A stretch of DNA of 64,000 nt from positions 1-64,000 of the forward strand of contig NZ_JASHJX010000021.1 of assembly GCF_030732985.1 (NCBI RefSeq). The letters run 5' to 3'. This stretch comes from Nioella sp. MMSF_3534 (lineage in GTDB: Bacteria > Pseudomonadota > Alphaproteobacteria > Rhodobacterales > Rhodobacteraceae). The notes beneath the pieces are model-generated. The model ran no database searches, had not been told where the DNA came from, and worked only from the letters and a program-made list of their open reading frames with translations. Positions 53,963 through 61,649 of the stretch are shown here, in pieces. The position numbers and the translations under genes are program-made. The first letter of the stretch is position 1. Each line of letters begins with the position of its first letter.

Positions 53963-54034
53963 CCGAAAACAGGGGGGTGCCATGCGTACACCCCCTGTAC
54001 ACCCCCCGTGCACCCCCCGTGCATACCAAACGCG
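53963..54034 (+). repeat. Dispersed GTACACC repeat, copy C
   Basis: Runs CCGAAAACAGGGGGGTGCCA, then GTACACCCCCT-GTACACCCCCC-GTGCACCCCCC-GTGCATAC, then CAAACGCG. Nearly the same as copy B on the other strand. It lies between the dctM terminator and the xylB promoter. Confidence 0.85.
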
Positions 54035-54091: not shown

Positions 54092-55492
54092 TTACATCTG
54101 GCTCGGCAGCCACAGCACGATCCACGGGAACGCGACGAGGAGCGCAATGGTGATCGCGTCGGCGATGAAGAAGGGCGTCACCCCCTTGAACACGTCCTGC
54201 ACGCTGAGGTCATCGCGCACCCCGGCCACCACGAAGCAGTTCAATCCGATGGGGGGTGTGATCAGGCAGAACTCTGCCATCTTCACCACGAGGATGCCGA
54301 ACCAGACCGCGCACATGGTGCCGGACATGCCGAAGGTGCTGGCCTCTGCCGTCACGTTCATGCCGCCGTTCAAAGCCATGACCGCCGGGAACACCACGGG
54401 CAGGGTCAGCAGCAGCATCCCGATCGCATCCATGAACATGCCAAGGACGGCATAGGCCAGCAGGATGCAGATCAGGATCAGCATCGGCGACATGTGCAGC
54501 GTCGTCAGCCAGTCAGCGAAGGCACCGGGCAGGTCGGCAAAACCCAGGAAGCGGACATAGATCAGCACGCCCCAGATGATCGTGAAGATCATGACGGAGA
54601 GCTTGGCGGTTTCCAGCAGCGCCTCCTTCAGCTGCGGCCAGCGCATGCCCCGGTAGAGCGCCATCAGGAAGACGATGAACGCCCCGATCGCGCCGCCTTC
54701 TGTCGGGGTGCCCCAGGCGTCGCCGCCGAAGGGGTTGTAGACGAAGAAGATGATGATCACGACGACCGCCACGATGGGAAGCGCCGGCGGCAGGGAGGTG
54801 AAGCGTTCCTTCCAGGTGAAGCCGGTCACGGGCGGGCCGAAATTCTTCAGCGTCATGGCCATGCCGACGATCAGCAGCGTGTAGACCACCGCAGAAAACA
54901 CACCGGGGATGAAGCCCGCCAGCAGCAGGCGGCCCACATCCTGTTCCACGATGATCGCGTAGATCACGAGGATGGCCGATGGCGGGATCAGTGAGGCGAG
55001 CGTGCCCGCCGCCGCCACGACGCCCGCCGCAAAGCGCTTGTCATAGCCCACGGCCAGCATCTCCGGGATCGCGATGCGGGCGAAGACGGCGGAGGTTGCA
55101 ACAGACGCCCCCGACACGGCGGCAAAGCCCGCGGTGGCGAAGACGGTCGAGACAGCCAAGCCGCCGGGCACCCAGGCGAACCAGCGTTTGGCGGCTTCAA
55201 ACAGCGCCTTGGTCAGCCCTGCGTGATAGGCGAGATAGCCGATCAGGATGAAGGTGGGGATGAGGCTGAGCGCCTGGCTGGAGATTTTCGAATGGGGCAC
55301 CTGCCCCGCTGTCTTCACCGCCACGGTCAGCGCCCAGAGGAAATCCTCGGGGTCATAGCCCCGGCGGCTCCAGAAGATCCAGATCAGGCCGACGAGGCCC
55401 GAGAGACCAGCGGCGAAAGCCACGCGCATCCCGAGGATGACAAGCACCAGCATGCCGCCCGAGACGATGAGGCCGATTTGAATGGGTTCCAT
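54092..55492 (-). CDS. dctM: TRAP transporter large permease
   Basis: 466 residues, DctM family, about 12 TM helices. Conserved segments PPSAILVIYAIIVEQDVGRLLLAGFIPG and ITPPIGLNCFVVAGV near the C-terminus are typical. The long hydrophilic loop around 230-260 (AVVYTL...WKERF) is normal for the group. It pairs with dctQ 12 bp upstream and binding protein dctP. Confidence 0.93.
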   Translation of the reverse strand: MEPIQIGLIVSGGMLVLVILGMRVAFAAGLSGLVGLIWIFWSRRGYDPEDFLWALTVAVKTAGQVPHSKISSQALSLIPTFILIGYLAYHAGLTKALFEAAKRWFAWVPGGLAVSTVFATAGFAAVSGASVATSAVFARIAIPEMLAVGYDKRFAAGVVAAAGTLASLIPPSAILVIYAIIVEQDVGRLLLAGFIPGVFSAVVYTLLIVGMAMTLKNFGPPVTGFTWKERFTSLPPALPIVAVVVIIIFFVYNPFGGDAWGTPTEGGAIGAFIVFLMALYRGMRWPQLKEALLETAKLSVMIFTIIWGVLIYVRFLGFADLPGAFADWLTTLHMSPMLILICILLAYAVLGMFMDAIGMLLLTLPVVFPAVMALNGGMNVTAEASTFGMSGTMCAVWFGILVVKMAEFCLITPPIGLNCFVVAGVRDDLSVQDVFKGVTPFFIADAITIALLVAFPWIVLWLPSQM

Positions 55493-55504: not shown

Positions 55505-56137
55505 TCAGTCGTCGCTGCCGGAAACCTGGGCGGCTTCCATCGCGGCTTGGGTGGCGGCATCTGCGTGCAGAGGAACTCCCACGGGTTGATCCTCGCCCCG
55601 GATCAGCGCCCGGCCATAGACGAACACCTGCAACGCAAGACGCAGGCAGATGACGAAGAAGGCCACCGGCACCACCAGCTTGGCGGGCCAGAGCGGCAGG
55701 CGGATATCCATGGAACTGTCACGGCTCCACCACGGTTCGTTGAAGTCGAAACTGCGCTGGAAATGCGCCCAGGAGCCCCAGACGAGCAGCACCATCAGGA
55801 TGAGGATGGCGAGCGTGGTGACGAGCTCCGCCGCCCACATGGGACGGCCGCGCAGATTGCCGACCAGCAGGTCCATGCGGATATGGCCACCTTCACGCTG
55901 CGTATAGGCGATGCCCATGATCGCAATCAGCGGCATCGCCTGTTCGATCCAGTCCACGTAACCGGGGATCGGCTGCGAGAAAAAGTTGCGCCCGCCGACC
56001 GAGATCACGGCGAGGATCATCAGCGAAAAGACCGCGAGGCCACTGACGAGCGCCATTTTGCGCTCCAGCCACAGCAGGGATTGGTCGAGACGGCTGACGA
56101 GGCTGTCATCGGACAGCACGAGGGAAGCTCCGGCCAT
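55505..56137 (-). CDS. dctQ: TRAP transporter small permease
   Basis: 210 residues with four TM helices; segments VDWIEQAMPLIAIMGIAYTQREGGHIRMD are characteristic of DctQ. A somewhat long periplasmic or cytoplasmic stretch with FDFNEPWWSRDSSMDIRLPLWPAK precedes the last TM, as seen in the subgroup acting on aromatic or keto acids. Needed for membrane assembly with DctM. Confidence 0.92.
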   Translation of the reverse strand: MAGASLVLSDDSLVSRLDQSLLWLERKMALVSGLAVFSLMILAVISVGGRNFFSQPIPGYVDWIEQAMPLIAIMGIAYTQREGGHIRMDLLVGNLRGRPMWAAELVTTLAILILMVLLVWGSWAHFQRSFDFNEPWWSRDSSMDIRLPLWPAKLVVPVAFFVICLRLALQVFVYGRALIRGEDQPVGVPLHADAATQAAMEAAQVSGSDD

Positions 56138-56219: not shown

Positions 56220-57230
56220 TCAGTTGCCCTCGGCGATCAGGCCGGTGACGAAATCGTAGAGCTCCTGCGCGGGCAGGCCGCGGGCATTGTTTTCTTCGAT
56301 CCAGGCAGCAGCGGCGGGGGCGGCGGCGGCCTCACGGAAGGCGGCAAGTTCAGCGTCCCCGAAGGTGATCCGCTCGATCCCGCGTTCGTCCAGCGCCGGG
56401 CCCCATGCGGCCATGGTCTGATCGTTGTAGTAGTCCAGATAGTGCTGCATCGCCTCGTCCACGGCACCCATCAGGATCTCGCGCTCGCCATCCGACAGAG
56501 CGTCGAGCGCGTCGGTGTTCACCACAACCGGGCAGTTCACGGTGCCGGGGTTGAGGTTGGTGGTCCACCACTCGCCGGATTCGATGGTGCCGAAAGACAT
56601 ATGGGCGTGGGGCGCGAAGCTGACAGCCTGAACAACACCGCTATCGAGCGCCTGGCGCACTTCGGTCGCGGTCATCGAGGTGGGGACGGCGCCGATCGCG
56701 GACATGGCCGCGCCGATACCACCGGTTGCACGCACGGCCATACCGGCGAAGTCCTCGACCGACGACGGCGCGTCGCCCCGACCGACGAAATTGTACTGCG
56801 GCAGCGGAGACGGCATCAGCAGCGTCGCGTTCCAGCGGGCGAGGTCAGCCACCACGGCGGGATGCTGGTAAAGCGCCATGGACACCTCGGCCTCCTGCTC
56901 CAGCGAGCTCATGCCAAGGAATGGCAGCTCCAGCACAGTGATCGAGGGGTTCTTGTCGGCGTGGTAGCCGGCACAGAACTGAGCCATCTCGAAGGCGCCG
57001 ATGGAGATGCCGTCGAGGTTCTCGCGGTTGCCCGACAGGCCGCCATAGGAAATGTTCATGGTGAATTCACCGCCGGAACGTTCGGCGACCAGCTCCGCCA
57101 GCCGTTCCACATGTTCAGTGAAGGCGCGGCGCGCGCCCCAGACGGATACGTTCCATTCGGTGGCGAAAGCCTCGGCTGCAAAGCCAACGGTCAGGGCGGC
57201 CACTGCGGTGGCCGTGAGTGTCTTTTTCAT
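56220..57230 (-). CDS. dctP: TRAP transporter solute-binding protein, DctP family
   Basis: 336 residues from the ATG at 57230 with a GGAGG site. Signal peptide of about 23 residues ending AEAFA-TEW. The mature protein shows the DctP fold: ARRAFTEHVERLAELVAERSGGEF, the ligand Arg in MAVRATGG, and NTDALDALSDGEREI. Members bind carboxylates through the Arg. The neighbouring M20 amidohydrolase suggests an N-acyl or amide compound, or a keto acid from it. Confidence 0.92.
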   Translation of the reverse strand: MKKTLTATAVAALTVGFAAEAFATEWNVSVWGARRAFTEHVERLAELVAERSGGEFTMNISYGGLSGNRENLDGISIGAFEMAQFCAGYHADKNPSITVLELPFLGMSSLEQEAEVSMALYQHPAVVADLARWNATLLMPSPLPQYNFVGRGDAPSSVEDFAGMAVRATGGIGAAMSAIGAVPTSMTATEVRQALDSGVVQAVSFAPHAHMSFGTIESGEWWTTNLNPGTVNCPVVVNTDALDALSDGEREILMGAVDEAMQHYLDYYNDQTMAAWGPALDERGIERITFGDAELAAFREAAAAPAAAAWIEENNARGLPAQELYDFVTGLIAEGN

Positions 57231-57332
57231 GATGTCCTCCCAATTGATCACACGTTGCGTGGATGAGGGGAGTATGGGGGACCGCCCGCGCGCCTGCCTA
57301 TGAAGGAAACCGCGCGCATGGGCGGCCCCGGT

Positions 57333-57348
57333 CTGCGGAATTCCGCAG
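57333..57348. promoter_or_regulatory. Palindrome CTGCGGAATTCCGCAG, DctD-site-like
   Basis: Perfect 16-bp palindrome between the amidohydrolase stop and dctP, 103 bp upstream of the dctP start. From memory, the rhizobial DctD binding consensus has the form TGCGGAA-N-TCCGCA, which it resembles. It is the natural candidate site for the DctD-like regulator encoded close by. Confidence 0.5.
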
Positions 57349-57350
57349 GG

Positions 57351-58490
57351 TCAGGTTTCGGGCAATCGGGCGCGGGCAATGGCAGCGTGGACCTGCGCCC
57401 CGTGGATCAACGCCGCATCGTTGAAATCGTAGTCCGGGGCGTGCAGGGGGGCGCTGCTTTCGCCATTGCCAATGAAGGCGAAGCAGCCGGGGACGTGGGT
57501 GAGGAAGCGGGCGAAATCCTCTGATCCCGTCATCGGTTCGGGGCGCGTCTGCGTGGCGGAGGAGATGGGCGCGACGGCCTGCATCATCGCCTCGGCCAGT
57601 TCCGGGTCGTTGATGGTGGGCACGAATTCGCGGTCGTATCTGACCTGCGCGGTGACGCCGTACTGGGTGGCGATGCCTGCCGCGATCCGGCGCATCTCTT
57701 CTTCGATCTTGGCCGAGGTTTCGGGGCTGAAGCTGCGGGCATCGCCCAGAATGCGGGCGTGACCGGGCAGCGCGTTGCGGGTGCCATCGGTGATCAGTTC
57801 AGTGACGGAAACCACGGCGGTTTGCGTGGGCGCGATGCGGCGCGAGACGATGGTTTGCAGGTCCATCACCAGCGCGCAGGCGGGCACCATGACCTCTCGC
57901 CCCCAATGGGGGCTGGAGGCGTGGCCGCCCTGCCCGGTCAGGGTGATCTCGAAGATGTCTTCCGCCGACATGATCGGGCCGGGGCGGGTCTCAAAGTGGC
58001 CCACGGGCAGGCCGGGCATGTTGTGGAGGCCATAGACCTCGTCAAAGGGGAAGCGCTCCATGAGGCCATCTGTCAGCATGGCCAGCGCGCCTTGCCCCCA
58101 TTCCTCTGCCGGTTGGAAGAGGAACCGGATAGTGCCATCGAACCCGCCTTCCTCGGCCAGCAGTTGCGCCGCGCCAAGCAGCATGGACGTATGCCCGTCA
58201 TGGCCGCAGGCGTGCATGGTGCCGGGGGTCTGCGAGGTATAGGCCGCGCCGGTGGTTTCGGTGATCCTTAGCGCGTCCATATCGGCGCGGAGCGCAATGG
58301 CGCGGTTCGACGTCCCACGTTTCAGGGTGCCGACAACGCCGGTACCGCCGATACCCTCCGCCACCTCCAGCCCCAGCCCGCGCAGGGTCTCGGCCACGAA
58401 TGCCGCCGTGCGGACCTCCTCGAACCCGAACTCGGGGTGACGATGCAGGTCGTGCCGCCAATGGGTCATTTGGCTTTCGAGGTCTTTCAT
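57351..58490 (-). CDS. M20-family amidohydrolase (hippurate/N-acyl amino acid hydrolase type)
   Basis: 379 residues. Metal-binding motifs HACGHDGHTSMLLGAAQLL and QPAEEWGQGA (with the catalytic Glu), His in LHNMPGLPVGHF, and the dimerisation domain around 180-290. Members remove acyl groups from amino acids or hydrolyse auxin-type conjugates. Lies 26 bp downstream of dctD and 120 bp upstream of dctP, so it may degrade the compound the TRAP system imports. No signal peptide: cytoplasmic. Confidence 0.9.
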   Translation of the reverse strand: MKDLESQMTHWRHDLHRHPEFGFEEVRTAAFVAETLRGLGLEVAEGIGGTGVVGTLKRGTSNRAIALRADMDALRITETTGAAYTSQTPGTMHACGHDGHTSMLLGAAQLLAEEGGFDGTIRFLFQPAEEWGQGALAMLTDGLMERFPFDEVYGLHNMPGLPVGHFETRPGPIMSAEDIFEITLTGQGGHASSPHWGREVMVPACALVMDLQTIVSRRIAPTQTAVVSVTELITDGTRNALPGHARILGDARSFSPETSAKIEEEMRRIAAGIATQYGVTAQVRYDREFVPTINDPELAEAMMQAVAPISSATQTRPEPMTGSEDFARFLTHVPGCFAFIGNGESSAPLHAPDYDFNDAALIHGAQVHAAIARARLPET

Positions 58491-58516: not shown

Positions 58517-59860
58517 CTAAAGCAGCGCGTCCTTGTCGAGCCCCAGTTTGACGATCTTTTCATTCAGCGTGCGCCGCCCGATGCCGAGCGCTTCGGCAAC
58601 CGCGTCCATGCGGCCCTCGTGCGCCTTGATCGCCTTGCCGATCAGTTCGCGTTCAAAGACGGCAACAGCTTCGCGCAACGTATCAGGGACATCTTCGGGC
58701 GTCTGATCGGAGCGGATCGCCTCAGCCACCGATCCGCGCCCGCGGCGGGCGGCCAGAATACGGCGCTCGGCGGCGTTCCTGAGTTCCCGGACATTGCCCG
58801 GCCAGTCATGGGCCAGCAGCGCGGCCATGTCGTCATGGGTCAGGTCGGGTGCGGCCACCTCGTAGATGCGGGCGTATTGGGTCAGGAAATGGGTGAAGAG
58901 CAGGCCGATATCGTCGCGGCGCGCACGGAGCGGTGGCAGGGTCAGTACCACGGTGTTGAGGCGAAACAGCAGATCCTGACGCAAACGGCCCTCCGCCACC
59001 GCCTGATCGGCGTCCTCATTGGTGGCAGAAATCACCCGCAGGTCGAGCCTGACCGGCGTGGTCGCGCCGATGGGGGTCAGTTCCTTTTCCTCGATCACGC
59101 GCAGCAGCTTGGCTTGCTCCGGCAGGGGGCAGGCGGCGATTTCGTCAAGGAAGAGCGTGCCGCCATTGGCCGCCACCAGACGCCCGGTGGCCTCGCCCTT
59201 CACACCGAACATCTCGGCTTCAAACGTGGCCTCGGCGATGGCGGCACAATTAAGCGCCAGGAAGGGCGCATCGGCGCGCGGGCCAAGGTCATGCAGGGCG
59301 CGGGCCACCACCTCTTTCCCGGTGCCGGTTTCGCCCTGCAACAGCACCGGCGCGGGCGTGTCGGCAAGGTCCAGAACATCCTGCCGGACGCGGGTGATAT
59401 CGCCGGTGCCGCCAAGCAGAACCCGGTCGAGGCCCGAGAGCCGCGCCAGCCTTTGTTTCAGCCGTTCGGTGCCCCTGGCCATGCGGTGCTGGTCTGCGGC
59501 GTGGCGCAGGATCGACAGCAGACGGCGCGGGTCATAGGGCTTCTCGACGAAGCTATAGGCCCCGTTCTGGATCGCCTGCACCGCCATGGGAATGTCGCCA
59601 TGGGCCGAGATCAGCACCATGGGCGGCGTCGTTGCGCGGTCGAGGCTGTCCAGCAGCTCCAGCCCCGACATGCCCGGCATGCGCACGTCCGACAGGATCA
59701 CGTCGGGCATGAGTTTGGGCAGCAGCTCGGCCACCTGCGTGGCACGCGGCAGCGCCTCGGTGCGCCATCCCGCGGCCTCCAGCAGATCGACCAGAGAGGC
59801 GCGCATGGATTTGTCATCGTCCACGATCAGGACCGACAGCGCGGTGTCCTTGGCGTTCAT
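58517..59860 (-). CDS. dctD: DctD-type response regulator lacking the GAFTGA loop
   Basis: 447 residues: receiver domain (about 8-125, phosphorylated Asp in ILSDVRMPG), AAA+ domain (about 145-370; Walker A GETGTGKE, Walker B GGTLFLDEI, R-finger region) and a Fis-type HTH at the C-terminus (AVAEALGIGRRTLNEKIVKLGL). In sigma-54 activators the segment FGxxxGAFTGA...GGTLFLDEI holds the sigma-54 contact loop. Here it reads FGVKGEATGRLVAANGGT, about eight residues shorter and without GAFTGA. This is like R. capsulatus NtrC, which works with sigma-70. ATGA-coupled to dctB. Confidence 0.9.
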   Translation of the reverse strand: MNAKDTALSVLIVDDDKSMRASLVDLLEAAGWRTEALPRATQVAELLPKLMPDVILSDVRMPGMSGLELLDSLDRATTPPMVLISAHGDIPMAVQAIQNGAYSFVEKPYDPRRLLSILRHAADQHRMARGTERLKQRLARLSGLDRVLLGGTGDITRVRQDVLDLADTPAPVLLQGETGTGKEVVARALHDLGPRADAPFLALNCAAIAEATFEAEMFGVKGEATGRLVAANGGTLFLDEIAACPLPEQAKLLRVIEEKELTPIGATTPVRLDLRVISATNEDADQAVAEGRLRQDLLFRLNTVVLTLPPLRARRDDIGLLFTHFLTQYARIYEVAAPDLTHDDMAALLAHDWPGNVRELRNAAERRILAARRGRGSVAEAIRSDQTPEDVPDTLREAVAVFERELIGKAIKAHEGRMDAVAEALGIGRRTLNEKIVKLGLDKDALL

Positions 59861-61581
59861 TCCGCGGCCTCCTTTGCGGTGTCGGCCAGCGGAATGTCGA
59901 CGCGGAAGACCGCGCCGCCGCCATCGCGGTTGCGGGCGGTCATGGCCCCGTGATGTTCCTTCACGATCCCGGCGGAAATTGCGAGACCAAGCCCCATGCC
60001 CTGCCCGGATTCGCGGCTGGTGACGAAGGGTTCCTGAAGCTCCGGCAGGCTGGACTGGCCGAGACCATGGCCCCGGTCCGCAACCTCGAACCAGCCTGTG
60101 CCTGCATCCGCCCCCACCCGCACGGTCAGGTCGCGGGGGGTGCTGTCCTCCATCGCGTCCATGGCATTGCGCAGCAGGTTGACCATCACCTGTTCGATCC
60201 GCAGCGCGTTGCCCTGAACCGTGACGGGGGCGGGCTCAATTTCTTCTACAAGATTGATCTGCAGCGCCTCGATATTCGGCGCAACCAGTTTCAGCGCCTC
60301 GCGCATGGCCTGGCCCAGATCGACGGGTTTCAGCGCATCCTCGCCCGGATTAGCAAAGAACTTGAGTTGCCGCGTGATGCCCTCCATCCGTTCCACAAGG
60401 CCGGTGAGTTGCGGAAGCGCGCGGTCGCTGCCGCCGATTTCCGCCGCCGCCAGATGGTTGCGCATGGCGGTGATGGGCTGGCCCAGTTCATGCGTGACCG
60501 AGGCCGCGAGCTGCCCAAGCGCGGCCAGACGGCTGGCGCGGGCCAGTTCATCGCGGGTGCGCGACAGGCGGCGTTCGGCGGCGCGGCGGTCTTCGATCTC
60601 GACGGCCAGCAGGTCATGGGCGCGGCGCAGTTCGGCCTCTTCCGTCTCCAGCGCCCGCAGAGCGGCCTGGGTCTGCGCGTTCCGGCGCATCAGGAAGACC
60701 AGCGCCACGCCACCCGCGATGACGACGGCCAGTACCGTGGCCAGCCAACTGCGCGTCGTCACCGGATCGGTGCTGGCGAAATAGTGCAACTGCCAGCCAT
60801 GGGGCAGATCGTCGGTGGCAAGGTGGATGACCTCCCCCCCTGCAATCACCGCGCTGTCACCCTGCCCTTCCCGCCAATCGAGCGGGTCGAGCGGCTGGCC
60901 GGGGAACTGCCGGGTTTCGGCAATCGCGGCGCGCTGATCGGCGTCGAGCGGCGTGAGCGTGCGGTAGCGCCAATCGGGGTTGGAGGCGAGCAGCACCACC
61001 CCGTCGGCATTGGTCAGGAGCACCTGTTCACCGCCCTCGCGCCAGCTGTTTTCCAGCCGCGTGAGGTCGATCTTGATGGCGATGACGCCCAGGGCCTCGC
61101 CCAGATCGGACACCACGGAATCGGCGATGAAATAGCCCGGCAGACCGGTGGTGGCACCGATGCCGTAGAACCGGCCCTGCCCGCCTTCCATCGCCTCCTG
61201 AAAATAGGGACGGAAGGAGTAATTCTGACCGACGAAGCTGCTGGCGCTGCCCGCGTTTGAAGCCGAAATCGTCAGCCCTTCGAAATCCATCAGGTAGATG
61301 GCGTCGAGGCCGGACTGGCTGGCGAAAGAGGCCAGCCGCCCGTCCAGCGGGGCCGTGGGCCCGCCGCTGGCGGTTTCCATGACGAACGGATCGCGGGCGA
61401 GGACAAAGGTCAGGTGCGAGAACCGGTCAAGCTCCGCCACCACTGTGGAGCGGTAGAGCGACAGGCGGCCCTCGGCGCGCGTCACCTCCTCGGACCGGAA
61501 ATAGCGCGACGACAGCACATAGGCCCCGGACGCGAAGGCCAGGAACAGCAGCGAGAACAGGATGGTGCGGGTGACGGTCAT
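59857..61581 (-). CDS. dctB: DctB-type sensor histidine kinase
   Basis: 574 residues from the ATG at 61581 with a GGAGG site. TM helix at about 8-26, a periplasmic dCache-like sensor domain (about 30-275), second TM at about 280-298, a coiled coil (about 305-350), the H box in LAASVTHELGQPITAMRNHL, and ATPase motifs NLLRNAMDA (N box) and GMGLGLAISAGI (G box). It senses an external organic acid and phosphorylates the DctD-like partner, whose gene overlaps its stop. Confidence 0.93.
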   Translation of the reverse strand: MTVTRTILFSLLFLAFASGAYVLSSRYFRSEEVTRAEGRLSLYRSTVVAELDRFSHLTFVLARDPFVMETASGGPTAPLDGRLASFASQSGLDAIYLMDFEGLTISASNAGSASSFVGQNYSFRPYFQEAMEGGQGRFYGIGATTGLPGYFIADSVVSDLGEALGVIAIKIDLTRLENSWREGGEQVLLTNADGVVLLASNPDWRYRTLTPLDADQRAAIAETRQFPGQPLDPLDWREGQGDSAVIAGGEVIHLATDDLPHGWQLHYFASTDPVTTRSWLATVLAVVIAGGVALVFLMRRNAQTQAALRALETEEAELRRAHDLLAVEIEDRRAAERRLSRTRDELARASRLAALGQLAASVTHELGQPITAMRNHLAAAEIGGSDRALPQLTGLVERMEGITRQLKFFANPGEDALKPVDLGQAMREALKLVAPNIEALQINLVEEIEPAPVTVQGNALRIEQVMVNLLRNAMDAMEDSTPRDLTVRVGADAGTGWFEVADRGHGLGQSSLPELQEPFVTSRESGQGMGLGLAISAGIVKEHHGAMTARNRDGGGAVFRVDIPLADTAKEAAE

Positions 61582-61649
61582 GCCCCTCCCCGGCTGTGGC
61601 GTCATCTGGGAACAGGCTTAGCCGAAAGGGCGGGGATGTCAAAACGCCT

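Follow-up and report, generated by a model that had tools for sequence, protein, structure and literature searches.

Rhizobial DctD, which has DctB as its partner, is among the described regulators closest to the DctD-like protein studied here. The two share the receiver-AAA+-Fis architecture, a place in the same DctD clade (SH-aLRT support of 99), and a similar operator core, TGCGG-N4-CCGCA. However, the rhizobial protein has the GAFTGA loop and a -24/-12 promoter, its sites being centered roughly 81 and 115 bp ahead of that promoter. VpsR, TyrR, DhaR, and HupR are, like our protein, enhancer-binding-protein relatives with a broken GAFTGA; their families and targets differ from those of DctD. 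NtrC of Rhodobacter capsulatus binds far upstream. It is reported to have lost GAFTGA, to activate with sigma-70, and to depend on the binding of ATP and not on its hydrolysis; more residues are deleted from it than the eight missing from Caulobacter NtrC (PMC10274813). The Caulobacter deletion removes part of L1 including GAFTGA, and the protein, which needs both Walker motifs, acts at sigma-70 promoters (PMC10274813). In the same text, the motif is given as lost or broken in Caulobacter NtrC and NtrX, Rhodobacterales NtrC, and Vibrio cholerae VpsR (PMC10274813), and a second source says this of TyrR, DhaR, HupR, and VpsR and states sigma-70 dependence as shown for E. coli TyrR, DhaR, and R. 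capsulatus HupR (PMC3162934). Caulobacter NtrC shares the eight-residue deletion with our DctD but differs in belonging to the NtrC family, in serving nitrogen control, and in having many targets. R. capsulatus NtrC is likewise of the NtrC family, and the NtrC-like protein of the genome under study (L006) falls outside the DctD clade. Brucella NtrX (5m7p) matches our DctD structurally over its full length and shows no GAFTGA in the alignment, but belongs to the NtrX family. The earlier note on this DNA had suggested a possible second independent case of a move to sigma-70 control with loop loss; that suggestion has to be given up, as TyrR, DhaR, HupR, VpsR, NtrX, Caulobacter NtrC, and paralogs in the same genome are also without the motif. 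The protein is thus of a known kind, the GAFTGA-less enhancer-binding-protein relatives, and what is added here is a matched promoter change, a natural experiment in rpoN, and a co-occurrence test. A literature search that covered few subscription papers found no publication on a GAFTGA-less DctD. Little is settled about how an ATPase that evolved for sigma-54 promoters comes to work at ordinary ones, and few cases trace both the protein and the promoter.

The window, by which we mean the whole 64,000-nucleotide stretch of Nioella sp. MMSF_3534 DNA that was analyzed, carries the gene order dctB-dctD-amidohydrolase-dctP-dctQ-dctM on the minus strand between positions 54092 and 61605. The dctD gene (58517 to 59860, minus strand) is an open reading frame of 447 amino acids encoding a response regulator with a receiver domain (Asp58), an AAA+ domain without the GAFTGA loop, and a Fis-type helix-turn-helix (HTH). 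A family scan gave PF00072 at 94.7 bits, PF00158 at 164.1, and PF02954 at 38.8, all above cut-off, and the protein therefore has the receiver, AAA+ (PF00158), and Fis HTH (PF02954) of a DctD-type response regulator. The shortened L1 region lies within the string AEMFG-VKGEATGRLVAAN-GGTLFLDEI (59138 to 59212, minus strand, from MFG to LDEI). Between MFG and GGTLFLDEI there are 13 residues (59165 to 59203, within the interval named by the earlier note) versus 21 in GAFTGA-bearing DctD loci, a deletion of eight. Walker A (GETGTGKE), Walker B (FLDE), the R-finger region, the receiver Asp, and the Fis HTH are all kept. The sequence and alignment thus bear out what had been claimed for this protein, namely, a lost loop of 13 versus about 21 residues, with Walker A, Walker B, the receiver Asp, and the Fis HTH intact; the same eight-residue deletion is found in most of its clade.

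An AlphaFold2 model built from a 37-sequence alignment (mean pLDDT of 88, pTM of 0.61) gave full-length matches to Brucella NtrX and to NtrC1/NtrC4, and its AAA+ domain matched PspF and FleQ at about 2 to 2.6 Å. The top Foldseek match was 5m7p, the Brucella NtrX, again over the full length, with a VIA Z of 30 that was tied with NtrC4. As the rmsd over the full length is large and the pTM is no higher than this, the model settles the domain folds only and not the domain arrangement. An identity as NtrX was considered for the protein and rejected, its score of 328.7 bits comparing with an NCBIfam NtrX cut-off of 600.

Orthologues at 52% identity or more were collected from 26 of 198 Rhodobacteraceae genomes and from a further 39 loci of named strains, some of which carry Hyphomicrobiales labels (Hoeflea and Nitratireductor, for example). 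The resulting 65 loci encode 64 distinct proteins, as L017 and L084 encode the same one. All 65 were read, and none had a GAFTGA-like string, the loop expected of a sigma-54-dependent enhancer-binding protein; because of this, sequencing error and chance are excluded as causes of the loop loss. The distance from Walker A to Walker B was 59 residues in all eight loci examined with a GAFTGA or GAFPGA loop and 51 residues, as expected for an eight-residue deletion, in 55 of the 64 measurable clade loci, the remaining nine showing 40 (four loci), 47 (two), 50 (two), or 54 (one). Walker B LDE was present in 65/65 loci and the Walker A pattern in 64/65, the lone miss being L028, which reads DETGTGK. 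Loss of the loop with retention of the ATPase motifs is a trait that the clade shares with the GAFTGA-less, sigma-70-linked relatives. Four carriers without rpoN (L100, L101, L103, and L105) have a further deletion of the loop and of the end of the preceding helix, leaving 40 residues between the Walker motifs; this was perhaps one event within one sub-lineage.

In a 60-row tree computed without the loop columns, the query clade (SH-aLRT of 99) lay within a 53-row DctD clade (99), and the NtrC-like and NtrX-like proteins of the genome fell outside, so that the protein groups with DctD and apart from them. Four of the six such proteins in the window's genome are without GAFTGA: the window DctD, the NtrC-like and NtrX-like proteins, which are so labeled by resemblance and gene order rather than by family scan, and a second DctD-like protein.

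The neighborhood is that of a dct locus. The DctB-like partner kinase, with dCache, HisKA, and HATPase domains (59857 to 61605, minus strand), overlaps dctD by 4 bp, and a relative of it lies upstream of dctD in 38 of the 39 loci of named strains; the contig of the exception, L044, starts just ahead of dctD. The transporter genes are dctP, for a TRAP solute-binding protein (56220 to 57230, its probable start being the ATG at 57230, which GGGAGG precedes, although the open reading frame as listed starts at a GTG at 57251), dctQ, for the small permease (55505 to 56137), and dctM, for the large permease (54092 to 55492), all on the minus strand. A dctP relative occurs at most 5 kb downstream of dctD in 37/39 loci. 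DctD therefore adjoins a DctB-like kinase and a transporter of dicarboxylate type by neighborhood, the substrate being a separate matter: the 37 solved relatives of the dctP product have varied annotations, and none singles out a substrate. An M20-type amidohydrolase gene (57351 to 58490, minus strand) is set between dctD and dctP, with a gap of just 26 bp after dctD. A close relative sits at the same place in only two of the 39 loci, both Nioella (L011 and L039), which makes it a lineage-specific insertion; the dctD-dctP gap is 2.9 kb in L011 and 2.3 kb in L039, and dctP comes about 90 to 150 bp after dctD in most other loci of the set. L041 has a distant (33%) amidohydrolase-like match between dctD and dctP on the opposite strand.

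The window's own genome has rpoN, as judged by sigma-54 models. Absence of rpoN elsewhere was read from assemblies by the Pfam cut-off, and by that measure 47 of the 65 orthologous loci are in genomes without rpoN and 18 in genomes with it. The former comprise 16 of the 26 carriers in the 198-genome set, one of which (G190) has a weak match below cut-off, and 31 of the 39 named-strain carriers, for which no completeness figure was given. A second sigma-54 model, PF04963, agreed in all 28 genomes in which it was tried (11 with and 17 without rpoN). The contrast extends to near neighbors of the window: a Nioella genome that is 99% complete (G186) encodes a DctD 87% identical to the window's and has no rpoN, while among two species with 97.5% identical proteins, rpoN is absent in Nioella ostreopsis (L011) and present in Nioella sediminis (L039). 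Alignment of DctD orthologues with and without rpoN, a check that had been proposed for this locus, found the loop absent and the protein motifs the same in both groups. With no GAFTGA loop, and with 47 of its 65 loci belonging to genomes that lack rpoN by this measure, the clade cannot depend on sigma-54. Among the 198 genomes, the orthologue showed no association with rpoN (10/26 carriers versus 51/172 others, P = 0.37), and the two do not co-occur preferentially. Over the same set, rpoN exceeded the Pfam cut-off in only 61 genomes (67 at an E value of 0.001); its absence is widespread in Rhodobacteraceae, yet GAFTGA-less relatives persist there.

Upstream of dctP is a putative operator palindrome, TGCGGAATTCCGCA (57334 to 57347). 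An exact search of the 4.15-Mb assembly for a wider regulon returned TGCGGANNTCCGCA at two places, this one and one inside a LysR-type coding sequence. The perfect form TGCGGA-NN-TCCGCA was present in 37 of 38 dctP upstream regions, which are those of the window and of the 37 named-strain loci with a dctP (L045 and L052 have none), and was missing from L043. Thirty-two base pairs past the palindrome center begins a conserved box, TTCCTTCATAGGCA (57295 to 57308, minus strand), presumed to be a second, weaker regulator site that merges into a -35 element. With TCAT, ACAT, TCCT, or TCGT accepted as variants, a TTCNTTCAT-like box stands in exact register in 34 of the 37 palindrome-bearing regions and one base off in the other 3. 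It leads into a hexamer, most commonly T[A/T]GGCA, followed 16 to 19 bp later by a hexamer of the form NAT[A/G][C/A]T; in the window, these are a -35-like TAGGCA (57295 to 57300) and a -10-like CATACT (57271 to 57276), both on the minus strand, with a spacer of 18 bp. This reading by locus took the best of five spacers for the -10 and so flatters the match. A scan of 135 offsets is the controlled version; it omitted L043, L045, L052, and L068 and was thinned of near-duplicates to 25 loci. The consensus -35/-10 score peaked at a single offset, with 7.2 of 12, the next best offset giving 5.3 and the mean being 3.6 (standard deviation, 0.78). A GG-N10-GC pattern was found at the peak offset in 0/25 loci and at any offset in at most 6/25. 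The layout is alike in carriers with rpoN (L022, L024, and L039) and without it (L011, L026, and L030). The window's own -35/-10 hexamers are weak, and in many more distant loci with the composite of palindrome and box, those two parts, the latter as TTCAT, persist with poor hexamers.

No -24/-12 promoter was found at the presumed target of DctD. Between positions 54001 and 62000 of the window, TGGCAC-N5-TTGCW had no match with 0 or 1 mismatch and a single match with 2, inside dctD, when GG and GC were required. In a 7.5-kb search of seven clade loci, five gave no match with 0 or 1 mismatch, and the single matches in L011 and in L030 lay elsewhere than before dctP. The claim that a TGGCAC-N5-TTGCA promoter is lacking thus stands for dctP, but for the amidohydrolase, which begins 26 bp after dctD, the promoter is not the relevant one.

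Fourteen GAFTGA loci were scanned as a control, nine of them rhizobial or Brucella (L048 to L051, L054 to L056, L058, and L069, some being close relatives) and five distant. In all nine, TGGCAC-N5-TTGC occurs with 0 or 1 mismatch on the opposite strand, upstream of the regulator region, and drives what we take to be dctA. A TGCGGA..TCCGCA-like site, matching at 9 to 11 of 12 positions, is centered 80 to 82 bp upstream of this promoter in 9/9, so that the operator, present as TGCGGANNTCCGCA in the window, is DctD-like. A weaker site, with 8 to 10 matches, lies 114 to 116 bp upstream, and L069 and L051 also contain stretches whose scores equal or exceed these. The five distant loci (L047, L053, L057, L060, and L070) have at least one TGGCAC-N5-TTGC match with 0 or 1 mismatch somewhere in the locus. 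The shared core and tandem sites make the operator core and the tandem layout look ancestral, and suggest that promoter type and distance are what changed. A fixed spacing was dropped as sole proof of sigma-70 control, as the rhizobial sites are nearly constant too.

The distribution of the composite element follows that of the regulator gene. Of the 198 genomes, 21 had the pattern TGCGGANNTCCGCA-N28-32-TCAT, one copy in each, and none had a reversed control pattern. It was present in 18/26 orthologue carriers versus 3/172 non-carriers (Fisher P = 1.2e-16), and the three non-carriers (G175, G100, and G178), near whose elements no dct gene relatives were found, are still counted as matches. A dctP homolog starts directly after the element in 16 of the 18 carriers, the other two (L153 and L155) having dctD ahead of it and no dctP in the stretch read. 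In 16/18, it shares a contig with dctD and is no more than about 3 kb from it. G139 has it directly before a dctP homolog on a different contig from an incomplete dctD, and in G197 an exact copy precedes a dctP homolog (L144, 54% identity) more than 1 Mb from dctD; in both genomes the element, though unlinked to dctD, follows the target gene. L144 is possibly a second target operon; at L104, where the dctD of G197 lies, the palindrome deviates at one position. The exact palindrome lies near dctD in 18 of the 26 carriers (in L083 and L091 found only by the composite-pattern search) and a version with 1 or 2 mismatches in 5 (L087, L090, L094, L095, and L104); none with up to 2 mismatches was found near dctD in L089 and L102, and L096 ends at a contig edge. 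Ahead of dctP, L098/L158 (G057) has two perfect palindromes separated by 19 bp, and it retains the TCAT box downstream of them.

On this evidence, we consider it probable that this is a DctB/DctD system whose response regulator has left sigma-54 and whose phosphorylated form recruits the housekeeping polymerase to dctPQM. Most likely, control has passed to the housekeeping transcription apparatus throughout a mostly marine group of bacteria. The earlier proposal of a move to sigma-70 control holds for the departure from sigma-54, as seen in the loop, the rpoN-less carriers, and the sigma-70-like promoter; that DctD activates sigma-70 RNA polymerase is something we infer from promoter anatomy. 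DctB would phosphorylate Asp58, and ATP-bound, oligomerized DctD would bind the palindrome, whose center is some 76 bp upstream of the predicted start, and occupy the weaker second site abutting the -35 at about -43; bound there, at both sites, it may contact and recruit RNA polymerase directly and raise dctPQM transcription. The ATPase may have been kept as a switch for assembly or DNA binding, as is reported of R. capsulatus NtrC, and not for remodeling sigma-54; conservation of Walker B and of the finger arginines hints at a continuing role for hydrolysis. The chances seem to us evenly balanced that the whole clade switched sigma factor in a concerted way, the loop being deleted and the -24/-12 promoter replaced by -35/-10 elements while the tandem operator was kept and its weaker half moved to abut the -35, with the result that an AAA+ enhancer-binding protein became a class II-like, promoter-proximal activator with no need for rpoN.

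Activators commonly bind upstream at positions such as about -76, and the relatives of DctD are activators. These points bear on a reading we hold to be unlikely, in which DctD represses this sigma-70-type promoter or regulates it in both directions, its second site over the -35 blocking polymerase until the DctB signal arrives. The weak -35/-10 elements would suit dependence on an activator, and the upstream site would be at a usual activator position; on the other hand, the TTCNTTCAT box is continuous with the -35-like hexamer, a repressor could also use a site at -43, and Caulobacter NtrC, GAFTGA-less as well, represses some promoters (PMC10274813). That the palindrome belongs to another regulator, with DctD acting elsewhere, is very unlikely, given that the composite element tracks dctD (18/26 versus 3/172), stands before dctP homologs (16/18), and has a similar core at rhizobial GAFTGA-DctD loci.

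The presence of rpoN in the window's genome, and in the genomes of 18/65 loci, would fit a DctD that still serves sigma-54 through another surface where rpoN exists. We regard this as highly improbable, because the 47 loci in genomes without rpoN above cut-off have the same protein motifs, rpoN-bearing and rpoN-less loci of the named strains have a common operator and promoter layout, and GG-N10-GC is not conserved at any fixed offset (6/25 at the highest). It is scarcely conceivable that the deletion is decay or chance without functional meaning. The Walker A-to-Walker B distance does depart from 51 in 8/46 measured rpoN-less loci versus 1/18 rpoN-bearing ones, but the other motifs, the partner kinase, the operon, and the operator are kept in nearly all 39 named-strain loci. 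For a concerted switch of protein and promoter, Nioella that are close relatives but differ in rpoN make a natural experiment. Protein and promoter are both conserved in many loci, relatives that did not switch retain a similar operator core, and nearly identical proteins come from genomes with rpoN and from genomes lacking it, so that the two states, ancestral and derived, are open to parallel tests. The label of sigma-54-dependent regulator would be misleading for these GAFTGA-less DctD proteins.

A second GAFTGA-less class (B) is typified by L005 (G000:C23:47615-48931) and includes L112 to L141. Its best match has an E value of 1e-132 or better in 177 of the 198 Rhodobacteraceae genomes, which far outnumber the 61 with rpoN above cut-off. 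The 30 class B loci that were read are without GAFTGA and have an odd Walker B, with ED in 27 and EG or EN in 3 replacing DE; TGCGG-N4-CCGCA was found beside the gene in 0/30. The query clade (A) and class B join with a support of 49 in one tree, and the fit of two constrained alternatives was not inferior (p-AU of 0.69 and 0.81) in a test that omitted the long-branch rows L073, L081, L006, and L066 of the 60; class B may or may not be the sister of clade A, and the DctD family may have lost the loop once or on two occasions. Three other DctD-like proteins, L001 (G000:C83), L108, and L111, have GAFPGA in place of GAFTGA. L108 is from G135, a genome in which no rpoN was found, and GAFPGA may therefore also mark sigma-54 independence.
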